A stretch of DNA of 64,000 nt from Liolophura sinensis (lineage: Eukaryota; Mollusca; Polyplacophora; Chitonida; Chitonidae), in contig NC_088295.1 of the NCBI RefSeq assembly GCF_032854445.1, forward strand, positions 77,280,028 through 77,344,027. Direction: 5' to 3'. The stretch's first letter is position 1. Each line of letters starts with the position of its first letter. The position numbers and the translations under genes were made by a program. The notes below the pieces were generated by a model, which saw only the letters and a list, made by a program, of their open reading frames with translations, was not told the DNA's origin and made no database searches. Below are positions 8,181 through 63,000 of the stretch, one piece after another.

Positions 8181-9310
8181 TCTCTTTAATATAGAATCAT
8201 TCACAGAAAATTCCATGTTTCCATAATATCATATTCTTAATCTTACGTAAGATGTTACATGAGAATAAATGGAAATATGTTTCTACAGCGCACATGCGCG
8301 TAAGTATACACATGTATATACTTAATAGTTTCGAGAGGCTTTCAGAGTATCTGTATGAAGCAATAGTTTTAGTTTCAGGAAATTTCTGTTTGGTTTCTGT
8401 CATTTAACAGTTTAAAGCTTGAGCATCCAACAGCATGCAATAACATTGTACGTTACGCTTTATAGAAGCATGGCAAAAACACAGGAAGAAGCCGCTAGCT
8501 TGAACATATCAATGCTCCTGTGGACTTCAAGGACTGCCATTCCCATCGAAGTGTTTCACATATGAGACATACAGAAACCAGTTAAGACTTATAAAATTTA
8601 ATACTTGCATAACAATCGTCATAATCTGGCTTCGTAAGATTGATATGTCATCTGAACATATATATTAAAATACTAGACATTAAAATATTAGATTTATATC
8701 CCATAGTATTCCTATAAATATTACAGGTGATACCACACAACACTAAAAAGGTTTTCCATGAATAAAACCAGTGTGTGGATCTTCTCATTTATCTAACCCG
8801 CGTAATCTACTAGCAGGTGAAAAACTGGTACTGTTCGAAAAAACCAGCCTAAAAAAAACAGAAAAGGAATGGCCACCCAACGCTATTTTAAATATTCCGT
8901 CGTGCATCTCAAATATGCGAAAAAGTAATTTCGTTAGATATCAAAGCTTGATCTTCTCTTCGGAAGTGTAAAGGAGAGATAATATTATTGTGATCCCTTC
9001 CTGTTCAAACATCTTGCCAGGGTCAGCTGGGCGAGTTCACGTACTGAGCTGATCAGATGATGCTAACCTGGGCTGTGGTGACACGCTCGGCTCTGTCTTA
9101 TAGCTGTCTAGAACAAAGCCTGCTGGTCAAGCTGTAATCACTGGGGTTATACCCTTAACCAGACCACAGTGTAACGAGCATATGTACACACACACACACA
9201 TAGACAGTGTTAAATGTAAAGAAACTCTTGTTGTCTGTGTGGTTTGAAAATAAAAAGGCTTGAGTGTTTTATGGGGAATAGATATTTTGGGTTTTAAAAT
9301 CTTTTACACT
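8181..9310. other. Intergenic sequence, no gene seen
   Basis: No recognisable coding, RNA or mobile sequence. It holds a short CA run near 9188 and otherwise unremarkable AT-rich sequence. Confidence 0.45.
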
Positions 9311-9324
9311 TGTTGGTCATTGTA

Positions 9325-9665
9325 TAGAATACGGCATCACATGACACCAAGTACGGTGTCACAGTGTAGAGGACGGCATTACACAACACCAAATAAGCTG
9401 TCAAGGTGCAGAATACAGCATCACGCAAAACCAAATACGGTAACACATTGCAGAGTGCCAAATAACACAACACCAAATACGGTGTCACAGTACAGAATAG
9501 GACATTACACAACACCAAATACGGTGTCACAGTGCAGAGGACGGCATTACACAACACCAATAGGGTGTCACCGTACAGAATACGTCATCACAACACCAAA
9601 TACGACGTCACAGTACACAGTACGGCATTATACAACATCAAATGCAGCACCACACAAAACACCAT
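9325..9665. repeat. About 42-bp minisatellite
   Basis: Repeats share ACGGTGTCACAGTGCAGA, CGGCATTACACAACACCAAA. Between 9481 and 9523 the period is 42 bp; flanking copies are shorter or degenerate. Long frames on both strands here come from the repeat, not from genes. Confidence 0.8.
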
Positions 9666-9779
9666 GATGTATAACACAATACAGTATACAGTAAAATCAT
9701 TCACACCATCACAACACACAACACGCTCCATCAAACAACACTATACAGGAGCTAATTCACAAAATCCATTGAGCTTAGG

Positions 9780-12020
9780 CTAAACTTTCAAACTCGAATT
9801 CTATTTATTAGCTTTGTTGTAAAATTTCCAATTTTTACACATTTGTCAACAAAAACACTTGTAACAGTCATGTTTATAAAACTAACTCCTCTGATCCAAA
9901 AAATAATGTTAAACCATAACCACAATTAAAATTCGGGTTGGTTACAAACTTGGCTGTGTTAAACGGCAAACGTGCCAGCGCAAGACGAAACCCACGTTGA
10001 CAAATGTGTTTTCTTCACATGTACAATGTTTGAGCAGGGCGATGAGGCGGGTGTACGTATTAACCTGGATAAATTCTTACGATCCTTGTATACCTTCTTA
10101 GCACAATCCCCTCGCCTTCTGACTGTCGTATCCCCACCCCCAGTCTCATCCTCCTAGGTAACGATATAGAGAAGATTTACGGAAAGGTACCTGTTCCCAC
10201 CAGTGTGTGATGATGATGGATCATAAACCACCGACTTATAACTGTGGTTTTAAGAAATGTAGGAGCTGTGAGTAGACTGTGTACAGCGAGTAGGTAGATC
10301 CACACAGAAGGTCACATGTACACATCAAATAAATTGGCGTTCTTGTAACTGTTACATAATAAACGATTTATTTAATTATTTTTTTATGTTTCGTATTATA
10401 AGTGTTTTTGTTTGACAAGTGTAGGGCTTTCGAAGAAAATAACATATAGGTTAGAGTTTTATGGGGAAATTGTACTCGTCTGGGGAACTTAATTATACAA
10501 GAAACGATAAACTAAGCCAAATTTGTAAGTATATTGTTAACGAAAAAAAAAAAAACCTGCCTAGACAGGCTACCAGAAATGTAGCCCTGACCATGTATTT
10601 GCCTAAGAGGTAGGCTCCATGAGCATACATACATCCAGCTTCAACGTTTCGCGACTTACAGCCGCAAGTCAAAGCATGATTAATCTTTAACAGTTATATC
10701 ATTCAACGCCCCAACGCATTAACAAACTTACCTTTCCAAATTCATTTTGTTACAGAATCCTGTTTTAGCATACGAATTTTCTAATCCACAACGAATGTTC
10801 CAGGTTAATAGTTCAGTTCAACATGATAGTGGTGTGTCTGTGGCTATTTGGAACAGGTTAAATCCACACTTCACACGTCCTAGCCCTTGTGGCAGACTGT
10901 TGACTGGTTCGAGTCTACACTGCGTCCCGAGCTGCACGGAGAGGCAGTAAAGAGGCTCATAAACTAGACCTCGCTCGAGGAAGTGCACACACTCGTTAGT
11001 TATCATAAAGTTTTACTGCGCAATAAGAAACGATGGTGTTGTTATCTCGTAAATTTACTACAGATCCGTGAAAAGTTAGCTTTTATTTCATAGTGCAGGT
11101 GAGTAAACGACGACAAACCATATTTCACTTTTATTTATCAGCTTCTGGCCGGCCAGTTATAGGTCAACTGTCTTTTTCTATACATAGCATAACAGCATAT
11201 AGAATATATATGGATGTCATGCAAATCATATTTAAGCAGTGATCGATATGTGTGCATGTACCTGTCTTTTAGATTTTCATTAGTGGATAACACATTGTTT
11301 TGAGTTATTCTACACAGTACCATTAACGCTGTTACAGTATAGTAAAATGGTGGCATGCAGCAATATGAAAATTGCAAGCATATATCGTATTCAAAAAGTG
11401 AACATACCCGAAAGCGGGACAGCCAGTTCAGAATAAAAAATATGAATTGTCAGTTTGAGATAATAAAATGCCTCTAAATTTCCCACAGAACTAAGAGTTT
11501 TCCTATGGGCACAAATCAATAATTATTGGCACAAGTTTTGCATTTCGCCGCCACTGTATGATACCAACTGAAAACTATGTCTGAATTGGCAAATTAGATA
11601 GTAAATTGTACTTAAAATGACGTACATGAATCAGAGCTGATAGATGGATAAGTATCAATATTTGAGTTACCAAAGAAACCTGAATTTGGTACATTGGCAA
11701 CAAAAAAGATGGTATCCATGCAGAGATTGCATAAGCATTGATTTTGGCATTCCTATCTAGAGGCAGTTTGTAACTGGTATCTAAATTAGCCCTTTTCGCT
11801 TTACTGGTACATCTGAGATGGCTAAATGCCGTACCGGTACTAGATTCGTGGGAAAACATATAAAGGTAAGCAAAGACACAAAAACTGGCTATAGGGTACC
11901 CTTCATTCCTTCATACCCTTCGTTCCCGTAATGGTTATGAAGCAATGAACAACTACCTGCAGATGTAGGTCCAGTCATAACGCCATTTATTTATGAATAA
12001 TCCGCGTACAGCTGAATAAC
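9780..12020. other. Intergenic sequence, no gene seen
   Basis: Small reading frames only; none resembles a known domain. A poly-A run lies near 10540. Confidence 0.45.
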
Positions 12021-57000: not shown

Positions 57001-60000
57001 TTGTGAAGAAATATAATCTCATGATCTTTCTTGACCAGTTGATTTCTTCACAGCTAAAAGAATAAGGATGTTGCGGAATTTATGTTATATATTAGCATAA
57101 AATTAATAATAAGCTTAAAACAACAAAGTAGTTAAAATTGGTATATGTGTTTCTTAATAACGACAATGTATAGAGCGGATCTTAGCCATCAACCTGTTTT
57201 TTTGAGGCGCAATAACTTTCCCCATTGAAGAGATTAGTTGGCAACCAATGATAACAGTGTCATCCGATCATGTGATGATAAAACTGCTGAGCACGGTTGC
57301 CATAGTAACAAGAGGCCACAATCCACCCGTCCTGTCCCATGACTGGCTGGGTCGTTTGTGTTTCTGACAAGACTTTTTAACAAAAATCTGAATTTTTGTG
57401 ATATGTGAACCCAACCCTCAGTTGTACATGTACAGTCTCCTAAAGTGACAACTACAGTACTCCCAACGTGATGTGTGGATCAAACAAACCACCCACTCTG
57501 TTGTACAGCCTCCCAATGTGACAACTACAGTACTCCCAACGTGATGTGTGGATCAAACAAACCACCCACTCTGTTGTACAGCCTCCCAATGTTACAACTA
57601 CAGTACTCCCAACGTGATGTGTGGATCAAACAAACCACCCACTCTGTTGTACAGCCTCCCAATGTTACAACTACAGTACTCCCGACATCTAACTTCCCTG
57701 ATCAGTCTCGGATTCATGACACATTGATTGAGCACAGTGAAGACGCGCTTGTTCACGTCTTTTTTTAAGCATACACATACCTCCTAACAGAGTCACGGTT
57801 CGTCCAGGAATTGATCCACATAATGGAATGCTTTGGCAGTTGTGCTATTTTATTGCAGATTTGCTAAAGATAAGGAAGATTTGAAGTAAAGCGACCATTT
57901 TCTAACCTTCACATTCATGAGTGCATCAAAAACATGAAAGAATATTTTTTTGGAGGATGCCACTGAGAGTCCGCCGTTTCATGTTCTCTTTTCATGTAGG
58001 GAAATAAAAAGTGTATAGTGGGACAATAAGAGTTTAAAATAAAATATAACAAGTAAAACAGTCGTACAAGACCATGCATTCATTGCCAAACAAATCGAAG
58101 AAAAAAAAACGTCATTGATTTTTGTCACTTATAAATGGTAAATGATACTGGAGTCACGGTGATAGTCCCTGCACTACTAACTAGCCTAAACTTTTTAATG
58201 TGAACTCTTTTGGGATGATCAAATCGTGGCCCAGGCTCAGATTCACTGTGGCTGAGGCACAATTTTGAAGGAAATTAGATTGGGCGTACTGTATGTTGGT
58301 GTAGTCTTCTCACTGTGGCCAGCCCATGTTACAATCTTGCCAGCGGTTCAAAACTGGCCTTGGACAGGCAATTTGTGGATCCCCCAGTCTCTCTGTTTGT
58401 GAGGCCTTGGCGACAATAGGCAGTCCGCCACATTCGTTCAACCATGTGGGCGGTTTAGCAGTTGTCGAAGACCACTTGTCTTCACCAATATGCATATCTG
58501 TTCATCACATATTTAAAAGTTCATCAGTAACTTGCCATAGGTCAGTGGTTTAAGCCAGGCACTCCAGTTTCCTTGACCCGTAAAACTGACCACCATTGCA
58601 TAAGTGAAAAATTCTTGTGTACTATGTTAAGCAAGAGTCAATCCAAATCAATAAATGAATAAATAAGTTTTGTGTATGTGTGTGCAGGTGTCTGCCTGGG
58701 GAGGCTATGTCTTCATCACAAACCTCATCCCTCTCCATGTCTTTGTTCTGCTGCTCATGGGGCGGTACTCAAATAGAATTTTTGTAGGTAAGTGCATATT
58801 TCCAGGCTATGAATATGCCATTGTAATGTTGAAAGTGATAATCCAGTTTTAAGAGAAACTACATTAGGGCTTTCATGTGGTACGGAGAATGTCCCCAAAC
58901 ACAAAATCCTTGGCAGTTTTCTGTATAGTTTACCTGAGGTGGCATGAAAATATTCCGTTTGGCATGCAGAGAATCTGTTTACATTAATATGTATTGAAAC
59001 GATAGCTTGGAACATCTGCTTTGTGGTACTAGAATCTGGCAGAGTAGGGTTGGTTAGCGCAAAGACAGCATAATGACCCAGGAGCCTGTCGCCAATGCGG
59101 TCGATGTTGAAGTTCAGCTCATGCTGACTTCCTCTCCGGCTGTATGTGGGAAGGTCTTCCAGCAACCTGCGGATGGTCTTGTGTTTCCCCCGAGCTGTGC
59201 ACGGTATCTTCTCACCACATGCTGCCATATACCTTTAAGTGATGGCGCCATATACCTTTAAGTGAAATATTCTTAAGTATGCCGTAAAACACCAACCAAG
59301 TAAATAAATAAAAAAATGAAACATAATTTACAGGACCATGCTTAGGTTCTGGTGAAAAATGATAACAACATGAGGAAAATAAAAGCCTGTTGGTGCTGTT
59401 TAGGTTTGCAGTGGAAATAATGTTAATGTCCTTGTTCTCTCTTCCAACAGCATATACATCATTTTATATTGTGGGCCTCATCTTGTCCTTGTTCTCTCTT
59501 CCAACAGCATATACATCATTTTATATTGTGGGCCTCATCTTGACCTTGTTCTCTCTTCCAACAGCATATACATCATTTTATATCGGGGGCCTCATATTGT
59601 CCTTGTTCTCTTTTCCAACAGCATATACATCATTTTATATTGTGGGCCTCATCTTGTCCTTGTTCTCTCTTCCAACAGCATATACATCATTTTATATCGA
59701 GGGCCTCATATTGTCCTTGTTCTCTCTTCCAACAGCATATACATCATTTTATATCGAGGGCCTCATATTGTCCTTGTTCTCTCTTCCAACAGCATATACA
59801 TCATTTTATATTGTGGGCCTCATCTTGTCCTTGTTCTCTCTTCCAACAGCATATACATCATTTTATATCGAGGGCCTCATATTGTCCTTGTTCTCTCTTC
59901 CAACAGCATATACATCATTTTATATCGAGGGCCTCATCTTGTCCTTGGTCTCTCTTCCAACAGCATATACATCATTTTATATCGTGGGCGTCATATTGTC

Positions 60001-63000
60001 CTTGTTCTCTCTTCCAACAGCATATGCATCATTTTATTTCGGGGGCCTCATATTGTCCTTGTTCTCTCTTTCAACAACATATGCATCATTTTATATCATG
60101 GGCCTCATCTTGTCCTTGTTCTCTCTTCCAACAGCATATACATCATTTTATATCGTGGGCCTCATATTGTCCTTGTTCTCTCTTTCAACAGCATATACAT
60201 CATTTTATATCGTAGGCGTCATCTTGTCCTTGTTCTCTCTTCCAACAGCATATACATCATTTTATATCGGGGGCCTCATATTGTCCTTGTTTTCTCTTCC
60301 AACAGCATATACATCATTTTATATCGTGGGCCTCATCTTGTCCATGCAAGTTCCATTTGTTGGTTTCCAGCCTATTAGAACCAGTGAACACATGGCTGCT
60401 GCAGGTGAGTTCTGGAAGTAGGGTATCCTCCACAATAATTGCTGAACATCGAATGTTGGTTTTCTTCTTTTATTTTTGTGGTATTTCGGACATCCTGATT
60501 CTAGTTTTATGGGGGAATACCAGAAGAAAACAATATGATTAAATTAAAACTAGCAGAATGTATGTACATTCTGTTTGCCTGTTGTGGCTTTATCTCAGTG
60601 CTAAAACTCAGTCTTTGCTCCCTGAGCGAATGAATACCATCATTTTAGGCTTGGACCTTAACAACTTGTGAGGTCACAAATATTGTTAAAATAAAATATC
60701 CTATATTTATAGACAGAGAATTATCTATTAAGTAAGGATATCAAATTTGTCCTTCTGTTTTTACAGAAGAAAACTTCAAAAAAACATGACACTATAGGCT
60801 GAAAAGGGCAAATATTTTTCTATCTGGTGGTGCCTGCTGCATAATTTTGCGAGTTTCTCGCCATACACGTAAAGCCTAAAAACGGCAAAGCTGGCATAAA
60901 TCGCTGTCCATCGCGTCCTCCATCTTTAACACCCTATGATTTATGTTGGGGGTGTGTTGCCTCTCAGCTATTGAGAGTGGTTAAAACTGCCGGCTTGTTC
61001 GTGTAAACTCGGAACCTACGCCCAACATTTCGGTTTCCCGATCGTCAAGTGAAAAGCGAACTATACTGTTGGCTACCTTCTGGGAAGAAGAGTTCTAGCG
61101 GAAATGTACGAACTGCGCTTTGGTGGTTTCTGACGGCAATTCTCCTCCTAACACAGAAGTCTGTCATATTAAGTAGACACTCAGATGTTACAAGTTTGTT
61201 CCATATGTTTTATGTTAGTGTTACTAATATCATTTGTCACTCTGTCTATTGTTATGTAGAGCATGGCACTTGGTATATACTAGCTCTGTCTATTGTTATG
61301 TTGAGCATGGCACTTGGTATATACTAGCTCTGTCTGTTGTTATGTAGAGCATGGCACTTGGTATATACTAGCTCTGTCTATGGTTATGTAGAGCATGGCA
61401 CTTGGTATATACTCGCTCTGTCTATGGTTATGCAGAGCATGGCATTTGGTATATACTCGCTCTGTCTATTATTATGTAGAGCATGGCACTTGGTATATAC
61501 TCGCTCTGTCTATGGTTATGCAGAGCATGGCACTTGGTATATACTCGCTCTGTCTATGGTTATGCAGAGCATGGCACTTGGTATATACTCGCTCTGTCTA
61601 TTGTTATGTAGAGCATGGCACTTGGTATATACTCGCTCTGTCTGTTGTTATGTAGAGCATGGCAGTTGGTATATACTCGCTCTGTCTATGGTTATGCAGA
61701 GCATGGCACTTGGTATATACTAGCTCTGTTGCCTGCAGCCAGATTGTTGTCAATAACCATTTACATATGTTTACATAAGGAATGTAGCTGATAAGTGTCC
61801 TGTGTGGTCTTCCAAACAGTGGGTATGGTTACCATAGCAACGAGTGGCCACAGCAGACTAGTATCACTATACCATGTGTCAGTTAATTGAGTGTTGTGAA
61901 TCAGTCATATTGGGTTTGATGATTATTTCATGGCAGCCAATGATAACAGTGTCATCTGATCATGGGGGGGGCCTCCGTGGCTCAGTCGGTTAAAGCGCTA
62001 GCGCAGCATAATGACCCAGGAGTCTTTCACCAATGCAGTCGCTGTGAGTTCAAGTCTAGCTCATGCTGGCTTACTCTCCGACGTACGTGAGAAGGTCTGT
62101 CAGCAACCTGCGGATGGTCGTGGGTTTCCCCGGGAAATCATCTGATCATGTGATGATAAAACTGCTGAGCACGGGTTGCTATAGTAACAGGAGACAACAA
62201 TCCACCCATACTGTTACAGGACTTGCCGAGTCGTTTGGGTGTTCAACACTTCGCCTGACCAAGTCCAGTACATTTCACCATCAAAACGTTCTTCACTAGG
62301 ATATTAAATAAATAGATAAATAACTAAATATATTTTCCTGCATAAAAAATCTAAATGTTGCTGCATGTGTAAAAATGGAGAATGGTGTGAATGAATGTCA
62401 ATTGTAAGGAAAATAAGCTCATTTTCTAGCAATAATCCTGATTTTGATGTGCATTTTGTTTACTCCCACAGGTGTGTTTGCACTACTGAATGCCTATGCG
62501 TTACTTAAGTACATGCAGTCACTGCTCACAAAAAAGAATTCAGTACTTGTTTTATGTGTCGGTGGTTGTGGCTGCTGGGGTGGTCTTTGTGGCTGTGGTC
62601 GGCCTGACCTGGGCAGGTGAGTGAGTTAGCACAAGTGATATGCAGGGGGTTTAGTTAGCAGTTGAAAACCCTTGTATAGCGATAACAAATCTATTTTAAG
62701 ATAGATGAAACTACTCATATAAAAACATGCAAGATAGAAAGAGGGACAGATGATTTGAGTAATTCAAGAAATGTAACCTTACCTGGGAAGTATATCGTGG
62801 ATGAGTGGTTGAAAGTGCCTCTGTTTCAATCATGAAGACACGTGGTACGGGTTCAATCCCATTCTTGGAGAATTTTAGGAATTTGTGGATTCCACTGTTC
62901 TGGGGACCATGGTTACATTGAGTTGTAGACGTTGCTGGTATGACCATATGCGCAGTATGGTTTCTGCCAGTATGGTGTTTGTATGTGGGAAAGTTTGTCA

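Follow-up and report, generated by a model that had tools for sequence, protein, structure and literature searches.

We analysed a window of 64,000 nt from Liolophura sinensis (NC_088295.1; all coordinates are positions in this window, + strand) and found, within its STT3B orthologue, a 57-bp tandem array that multiplies the splice acceptor and the first bases of exon 8. At a probability of roughly 0.6, we read this array as a neutral minisatellite that happened to start on a splice acceptor, with functional mRNA made mainly from the last of its acceptors (acceptor 16); the array is ordinary in origin and unusual in position. To our knowledge, competition between equal 3′ splice sites has mostly been studied via built minigenes of few sites or, as in PMC9225289, pooled natural pairs; one conserved gene with 15 nearly identical acceptors 57 nt apart is a natural test of acceptor choice. 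Unit-specific bases, present for example in units 3, 4, 10, 11, 14, and 16, distinguish many of these acceptors, and RNA would show how position in intron and exon decides the choice. The locus also illustrates that a conserved gene can take up a minisatellite at one of its splice junctions and show no obvious damage, here because the unit length is divisible by three and an intact copy remains at the end of the array. The consequence for STT3B biology itself is probably small.

Architecture of the array

Tandem Repeats Finder (TRF) delimits the array to 59427–60343 (period 57, 16.1 copies, 93% matches, 0% indels, score 1603), which places it among minisatellites (tandem units of ~10–100 bp in many copies). 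Slicing it unit by unit in the STT3B frame yields 16 full units, each of exactly 57 bp and with a mean pairwise identity of 94.3%, followed by a 5-bp remnant, TGTCC; the exon 8 frame is open through all 16. This confirms what an earlier note, made from the letters of the window, had described: sixteen equal-length units, open in the STT3B frame, that repeat the intron/exon 8 boundary. Its geometry, in which the exon 8 acceptor and the first bases of the exon are amplified in tandem and in frame, was right, and its maximum of 285 extra residues is correct arithmetic (15 × 19).

When cut at 59428, the unit comprises the final 23 nt of intron 7 and the initial 34 nt of exon 8; the alternative cut from 59429 gives 22 intron-derived and 35 exon-derived nt, the exact cut being ambiguous by up to five bases since TGTCC is common to both ends. 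The pyrimidine tract and AG constitute the intron-derived part of each unit. Three units deserve individual description. Unit 1 (59429–59485) has an acceptor AG ending at 59450, use of which would create a 954-nt exon and add 285 residues; unit 12 (60056–60112) has its acceptor AG mutated to AA; and unit 16 (60284–60340) holds the canonical exon 8 acceptor (AG ending at 60305), and its pyrimidine tract has a C to T that no other unit shares.

The units vary among themselves at 14 positions (15 alleles), those numbered 1–9 being more alike (0.961) than those numbered 10–16 (0.926). Identity by lag, at 0.950 for lag 3 and 0.932–0.949 for the other lags from 1 to 9, does not point to any strong periodicity of higher order. 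A 228-bp query of four units gave 5 matches, all within the array and none elsewhere among the best candidates, which were the ones scored; on that scope we ruled out a dispersed satellite or a transposon-borne unit. The array is confirmed as real, found at a single locus, and situated within an STT3B orthologue. Folding of the array RNA against shuffled versions gave z +1.71, with 20 of 20 shuffles folding equally well or better, and this ruled out a conserved RNA structure.

The array lies in an STT3B gene

We placed the exons manually, guided by translations and splice signals (acceptors of exons 2–10, donors of exons 1–8 and 10), and count them from the first coding exon found. Exon 7 (58688–58787; donor G/GTAAGT, phase 1, slash marking the splice point) aligns with residues 261–292 of human STT3B (6s7t_A) at 48.0 bits, yeast STT3 scoring slightly higher (49.1) and STT3A lower (41.1). 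The open reading frame (ORF) through the array matches residues 290–328 of the same protein (E 5.4e-13, 52 bits; STT3A ~32 bits), and significant alignment to STT3B is obtained only via the last unit and the remainder of exon 8. The canonical exon 8 (60306–60404, 99 nt; donor CAG/GTGAGT) opens with the exon-derived part of unit 16, its first Ala aligning with human residue 293; since exon 7 ends at residue 292, joining it to the last acceptor leaves the protein free of any insert. Intron 7 is 663–1518 nt long and intron 8 is 2067 nt.

Assignment to STT3B rather than STT3A follows from the higher STT3B scores of both exon 8 and a downstream exon with an SVSEHQPT stretch (145.8 bits, versus 92.2 for STT3A). 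An SWWDYGYQ stretch at position 66332 (in the window plus the next 10 kb) indicates that the gene extends beyond the array. The end of exon 9 falls near residue 347 of the human protein (E 0.48, a weak match), and the exon called 10 begins near residue 374; given this gap, an exon between the two is probably missing from our gene model. Genome-wide, with 12 candidates scored exon by exon, nine STT3-family matches were found at two loci, on the contig that contains the window (C1) and on a second contig (C3); from its translated exons, which have residues typical of STT3A, we take the latter to be an STT3A-like gene. A retrocopy or second copy of STT3B was rejected on this count of two loci, a search in which weak matches may be missed.

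Acceptor and branch-point signals of the units

The earlier note had spoken of 16 acceptors. Fifteen units do keep the AG, and unit 12 does not, having CAACAA in place of CAACAG. One additional AG occurs within the exon-derived part of units 5, 6, 8, 9, and 14. The pyrimidine fraction is 0.76–0.82 in all 16 units, and in each unit one or more yTnAy motifs have their A 24–41 nt upstream of the acceptor (at 27 nt in 13 of the 16; only at 41 nt in units 11 and 15; in unit 1 only TTAAT, at 24 nt). At the level of sequence, a single donor therefore faces multiple complete 3′ splice sites.

We scored these sites with a 3′ splice-site matrix built from the 8 other acceptors of the gene within the window, those 8 being scored leave-one-out. 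Unit 16 is the highest of the 16, at 6.93 (its C to T lengthens the T run), compared with 3.36 to 5.07 for the other 14 intact units and –3.74 to 9.39 for the gene's 8 other acceptors. We regard the score advantage of unit 16 as only a hint of preference. The upstream acceptors of the array, with scores that fall within the leave-one-out range, look as usable as some real ones.

The sole yTnAy in the 60 nt before acceptor 1 is TTAAT (59423–59427), a branch-point-like motif with its A 24 nt upstream of the splice point. The motif yTAAy makes the better branch point, and none is present inside the array. As we read the layout, TTAAT is the presumed original branch point and the duplicated segment started just inside it, which would explain why unit 1 kept this motif and why the canonical acceptor must use an exon-derived one. 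Neither AGGT nor GTRAG is present in 59427–60343.

Units diverge as neutral sequence would

Relative to the unit consensus there are 15 distinct alleles: 11 missense, 4 silent, and no stop. The neutral expectation, with transitions weighted 2, is 0.675 missense, 0.289 silent, and 0.035 stop (each distinct allele counted once; recurrent changes and gene conversion lie outside the model). The probability of at least 11 missense changes among 15 is 0.52 under neutrality, 0.0012 at an omega of 0.2, 0.012 at 0.3, and 0.10 at 0.5, such that omega at or below 0.3 is rejected (P ≤ 0.012) and omega 0.5 is compatible with the data. Restricting the test to the exon-derived part (6 missense, 3 silent) gives P 0.002 at omega 0.1, 0.033 at 0.2, and 0.11 at 0.3. 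Unit 16, which is included in the count, differs from the consensus once, silently and in its intron-derived part. The array thus gives no indication that the STT3B frame is under strong purifying selection, and the divergence of its units is of the neutral type; mild constraint remains compatible with what we observe. A Val shared with human STT3B is replaced by Glu in 4 of the 16 units, by Gly in 3, and by Met in 1. The variant alleles are spread over both parts of the unit (6 in the 22 intron-derived nt, 9 in the 35 exon-derived nt), and the splice signals show no visible deficit of them relative to the remainder.

The open frame across 912 bp, which the earlier note had singled out together with the absence of indels, carries less weight than it might seem to: chance alone leaves 15 changes free of stops with P 0.59, and another forward frame of the array lacks stops too (2 occur in the third). 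We accordingly rejected the open frame as a signal of selection. Recent homogenization, which the same note had offered as an alternative cause, explains the open frame well. Read by hand in the exon frame, 5 of the 8 other STT3B acceptors are preceded by 27 nt that are open (stops occur at exons 2, 7, and 10, that of exon 7 lying 22–24 nt upstream, at the edge of the would-be unit), so that the chance of an in-frame open unit is very roughly 1/3 × 0.6.

A probable neutral minisatellite seeded on the acceptor

The junctions suggest a route to the present array. At the left edge the sequence reads AATGTTAA-TGTCC-TTGTTC and at the right edge CATCT-TGTCC-ATGCAA; the presence of TGTCC at both unit boundaries suggests duplication through microhomology. 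The ancestor would have had two TGTCC motifs 57 bp apart, one within the last bases of intron 7 and the other in exon 8, between which slippage or microhomology-mediated repair may have duplicated the intervening segment, with unequal exchange or slippage then raising the copies to 16. The extra copies would drift neutrally. Most functional STT3B mRNA would have exon 7 joined to the last acceptor (60305/60306), with units 1–15 removed as intron; this acceptor is probably favoured by exon definition over a 99-nt exon flanked by long introns, together with its slightly better pyrimidine tract. The exon measures 99 nt via the last acceptor versus up to 954 nt via the first, and PMC9225289 reports sites closest across the exon as favoured under exon definition and long introns. 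Occasional joining to other acceptors would add 19n in-frame residues, probably as tolerated noise rather than function, and low-level use of this kind is plausible on the signals described above.

Several points weigh against this account. The other intact acceptors of the array (3.36 to 5.07) score inside the range of the gene's real acceptors, and the matrix from which these scores derive is based on 8 acceptors; the selection test is based on 15 alleles. Only unit 1 appears to keep what we presume was the original branch point, and its canonical counterpart in unit 16 would now rely on an exon-derived motif 27 or 41 nt upstream. Furthermore, PMC9225289 describes alternative 3′ sites at least 20 nt apart as preferring the upstream site overall, a preference that for long introns is significantly reduced and not reversed.

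Alternative explanations

The strongest alternative, which we consider less likely than the neutral reading, is stochastic use: several of the 15 intact acceptors would be used measurably, giving mRNAs in 57-nt steps and 19n additional residues with neither regulation nor selected function. Much of the layout is as this alternative would have it, in that 15 of 16 units keep the AG, each unit has a pyrimidine-rich tract (0.76–0.82) and a yTnAy motif 24–41 nt upstream, intact units score like the gene's real acceptors, every unit is in frame, and the presumed original branch point precedes unit 1. Exon definition is nonetheless expected to disfavour exons of up to 954 nt, and 19 hydrophobic residues inserted into what we take to be a membrane helix should disturb topology; 4 of the 16 units place a Glu within the helix. 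Use of upstream acceptors is predicted to be legible as a ladder of mRNAs in 57-nt steps and of proteins in 19-residue steps. A stronger form, in which 15 near-identical 3′ sites compete and several are used to give an STT3B mRNA ladder and perhaps subunits with 19n extra hydrophobic residues (the first site favoured by the presumed branch point, the last by exon definition), is possible and, in our judgement, doubtful. A precedent for the stochastic element exists in human UBC, which is reported to splice stochastically at tandem sites (PMC10809524).

Assembly artefact, with copy number inflated or the array absent from the organism, is improbable. A contig outside the window (C99) holds seven COX1 matches ~15.5 kb apart with in-frame TGA, and another (C632) holds one more; C99 resembles a head-to-tail concatemer of mitochondrial sequence, meaning that at least one tandem-like misassembly is probably present. 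Set against this, the units differ at 14 positions with 15 alleles, the window is without N, and tandem arrays are frequent elsewhere in the sequence sampled from this assembly.

Least probable is that the array persists for the sake of a catalytic subunit tuned by additional hydrophobic units: the units are in frame, open, and about the length of a helix, and omega 0.5 is compatible, yet the missense/silent ratio is as neutrality predicts, V has become E in 4 units and G in 3, one acceptor (unit 12) is dead, and a second frame is open. Where the earlier note had weighed a harmless satellite against variable-length subunits, then, its geometry and the homogenized satellite are supported, and the case for subunits is undercut by the neutral pattern of the frame, the dead acceptor, and the Val to Glu change in 4 of 16 units.

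Comparison with known systems

The array resembles other minisatellites and intronic variable number tandem repeats (VNTRs) in its head-to-tail units, 94% identity, whole-unit copies without indels, neutral-type changes, and single locus; it differs in that the unit straddles an acceptor and exon start, where theirs are contained within an intron or an exon, and keeps the reading frame. In NAGNAG-type tandem acceptors, several acceptors compete for one donor. Here, by contrast, the spacing is 57 nt and each unit has its own pyrimidine tract and branch-like motif, hence, by the distance rule given in PMC9225289, the choice would be made when the sites are first recognized and not in the second step.

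Human UBC, as described in PMC10809524, is alike in having a splice signal at an equal place in each in-frame unit, with isoforms that could differ by whole units. Its units nevertheless have a dual-specific AGGT, able to serve as donor or as acceptor, and code for a complete functional protein, whereas the STT3B array has acceptors only, neither AGGT nor GTRAG, and a unit that is part intron. Lacking AGGT, the array is not of the UBC type and could still work alike. Intron gain by tandem genomic duplication (PMC3443670) is related in origin, a tandem duplication there too multiplying splice signals; in that case an exonic AGGT is copied and new introns are made, whereas the STT3B unit is without a donor. 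In our searches of an open-licence library, we found no published array that spans a splice acceptor.

Minisatellite background and neighbouring repeats

To set the array against its genome, we sampled 15 pieces of 10 kb at round coordinates on 12 contigs (150,000 bp) and recorded TRF arrays with a period of at least 10. These pieces contain 48 arrays covering 13,368 bp of the 150,000, 14 of the 48 being of a larger kind (at least 5 copies and a period of at least 15); the window contains 20, of which 5 are of the larger kind. Among the 19 larger arrays, the STT3B one included, the period is divisible by three in 7 and at least one of six frames is open in 6; with the STT3B array left out, the figures are 6 of 18 and 5 of 18. 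An in-frame, open array is therefore not rare in the sampled genome, a count that does not extend to arrays on the acceptors of conserved genes.

Other repeats flank the array within the same gene. Directly upstream, in intron 7, lies an interspersed repeat (59040–59320, + strand) with many copies across the genome, matching 39 other places at 76–78% identity (40 scored of 7792 candidates); it resembles short interspersed nuclear elements (SINEs) and is reminiscent of SINE-like repeats of molluscs. Intron 8 contains an unrelated 44-bp minisatellite (61240–61729, + strand; 11 copies, 94% matches), from which a 261-bp query matches only its own place. A 73-bp array of 3.5 copies occupies 57429–57683 in intron 6. 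Further afield, one sampled 10-kb piece (L018) has three larger arrays in total, among them a 64-bp array at 8478–10000 (23.8 copies, 96% alike) that runs to the end of the piece.

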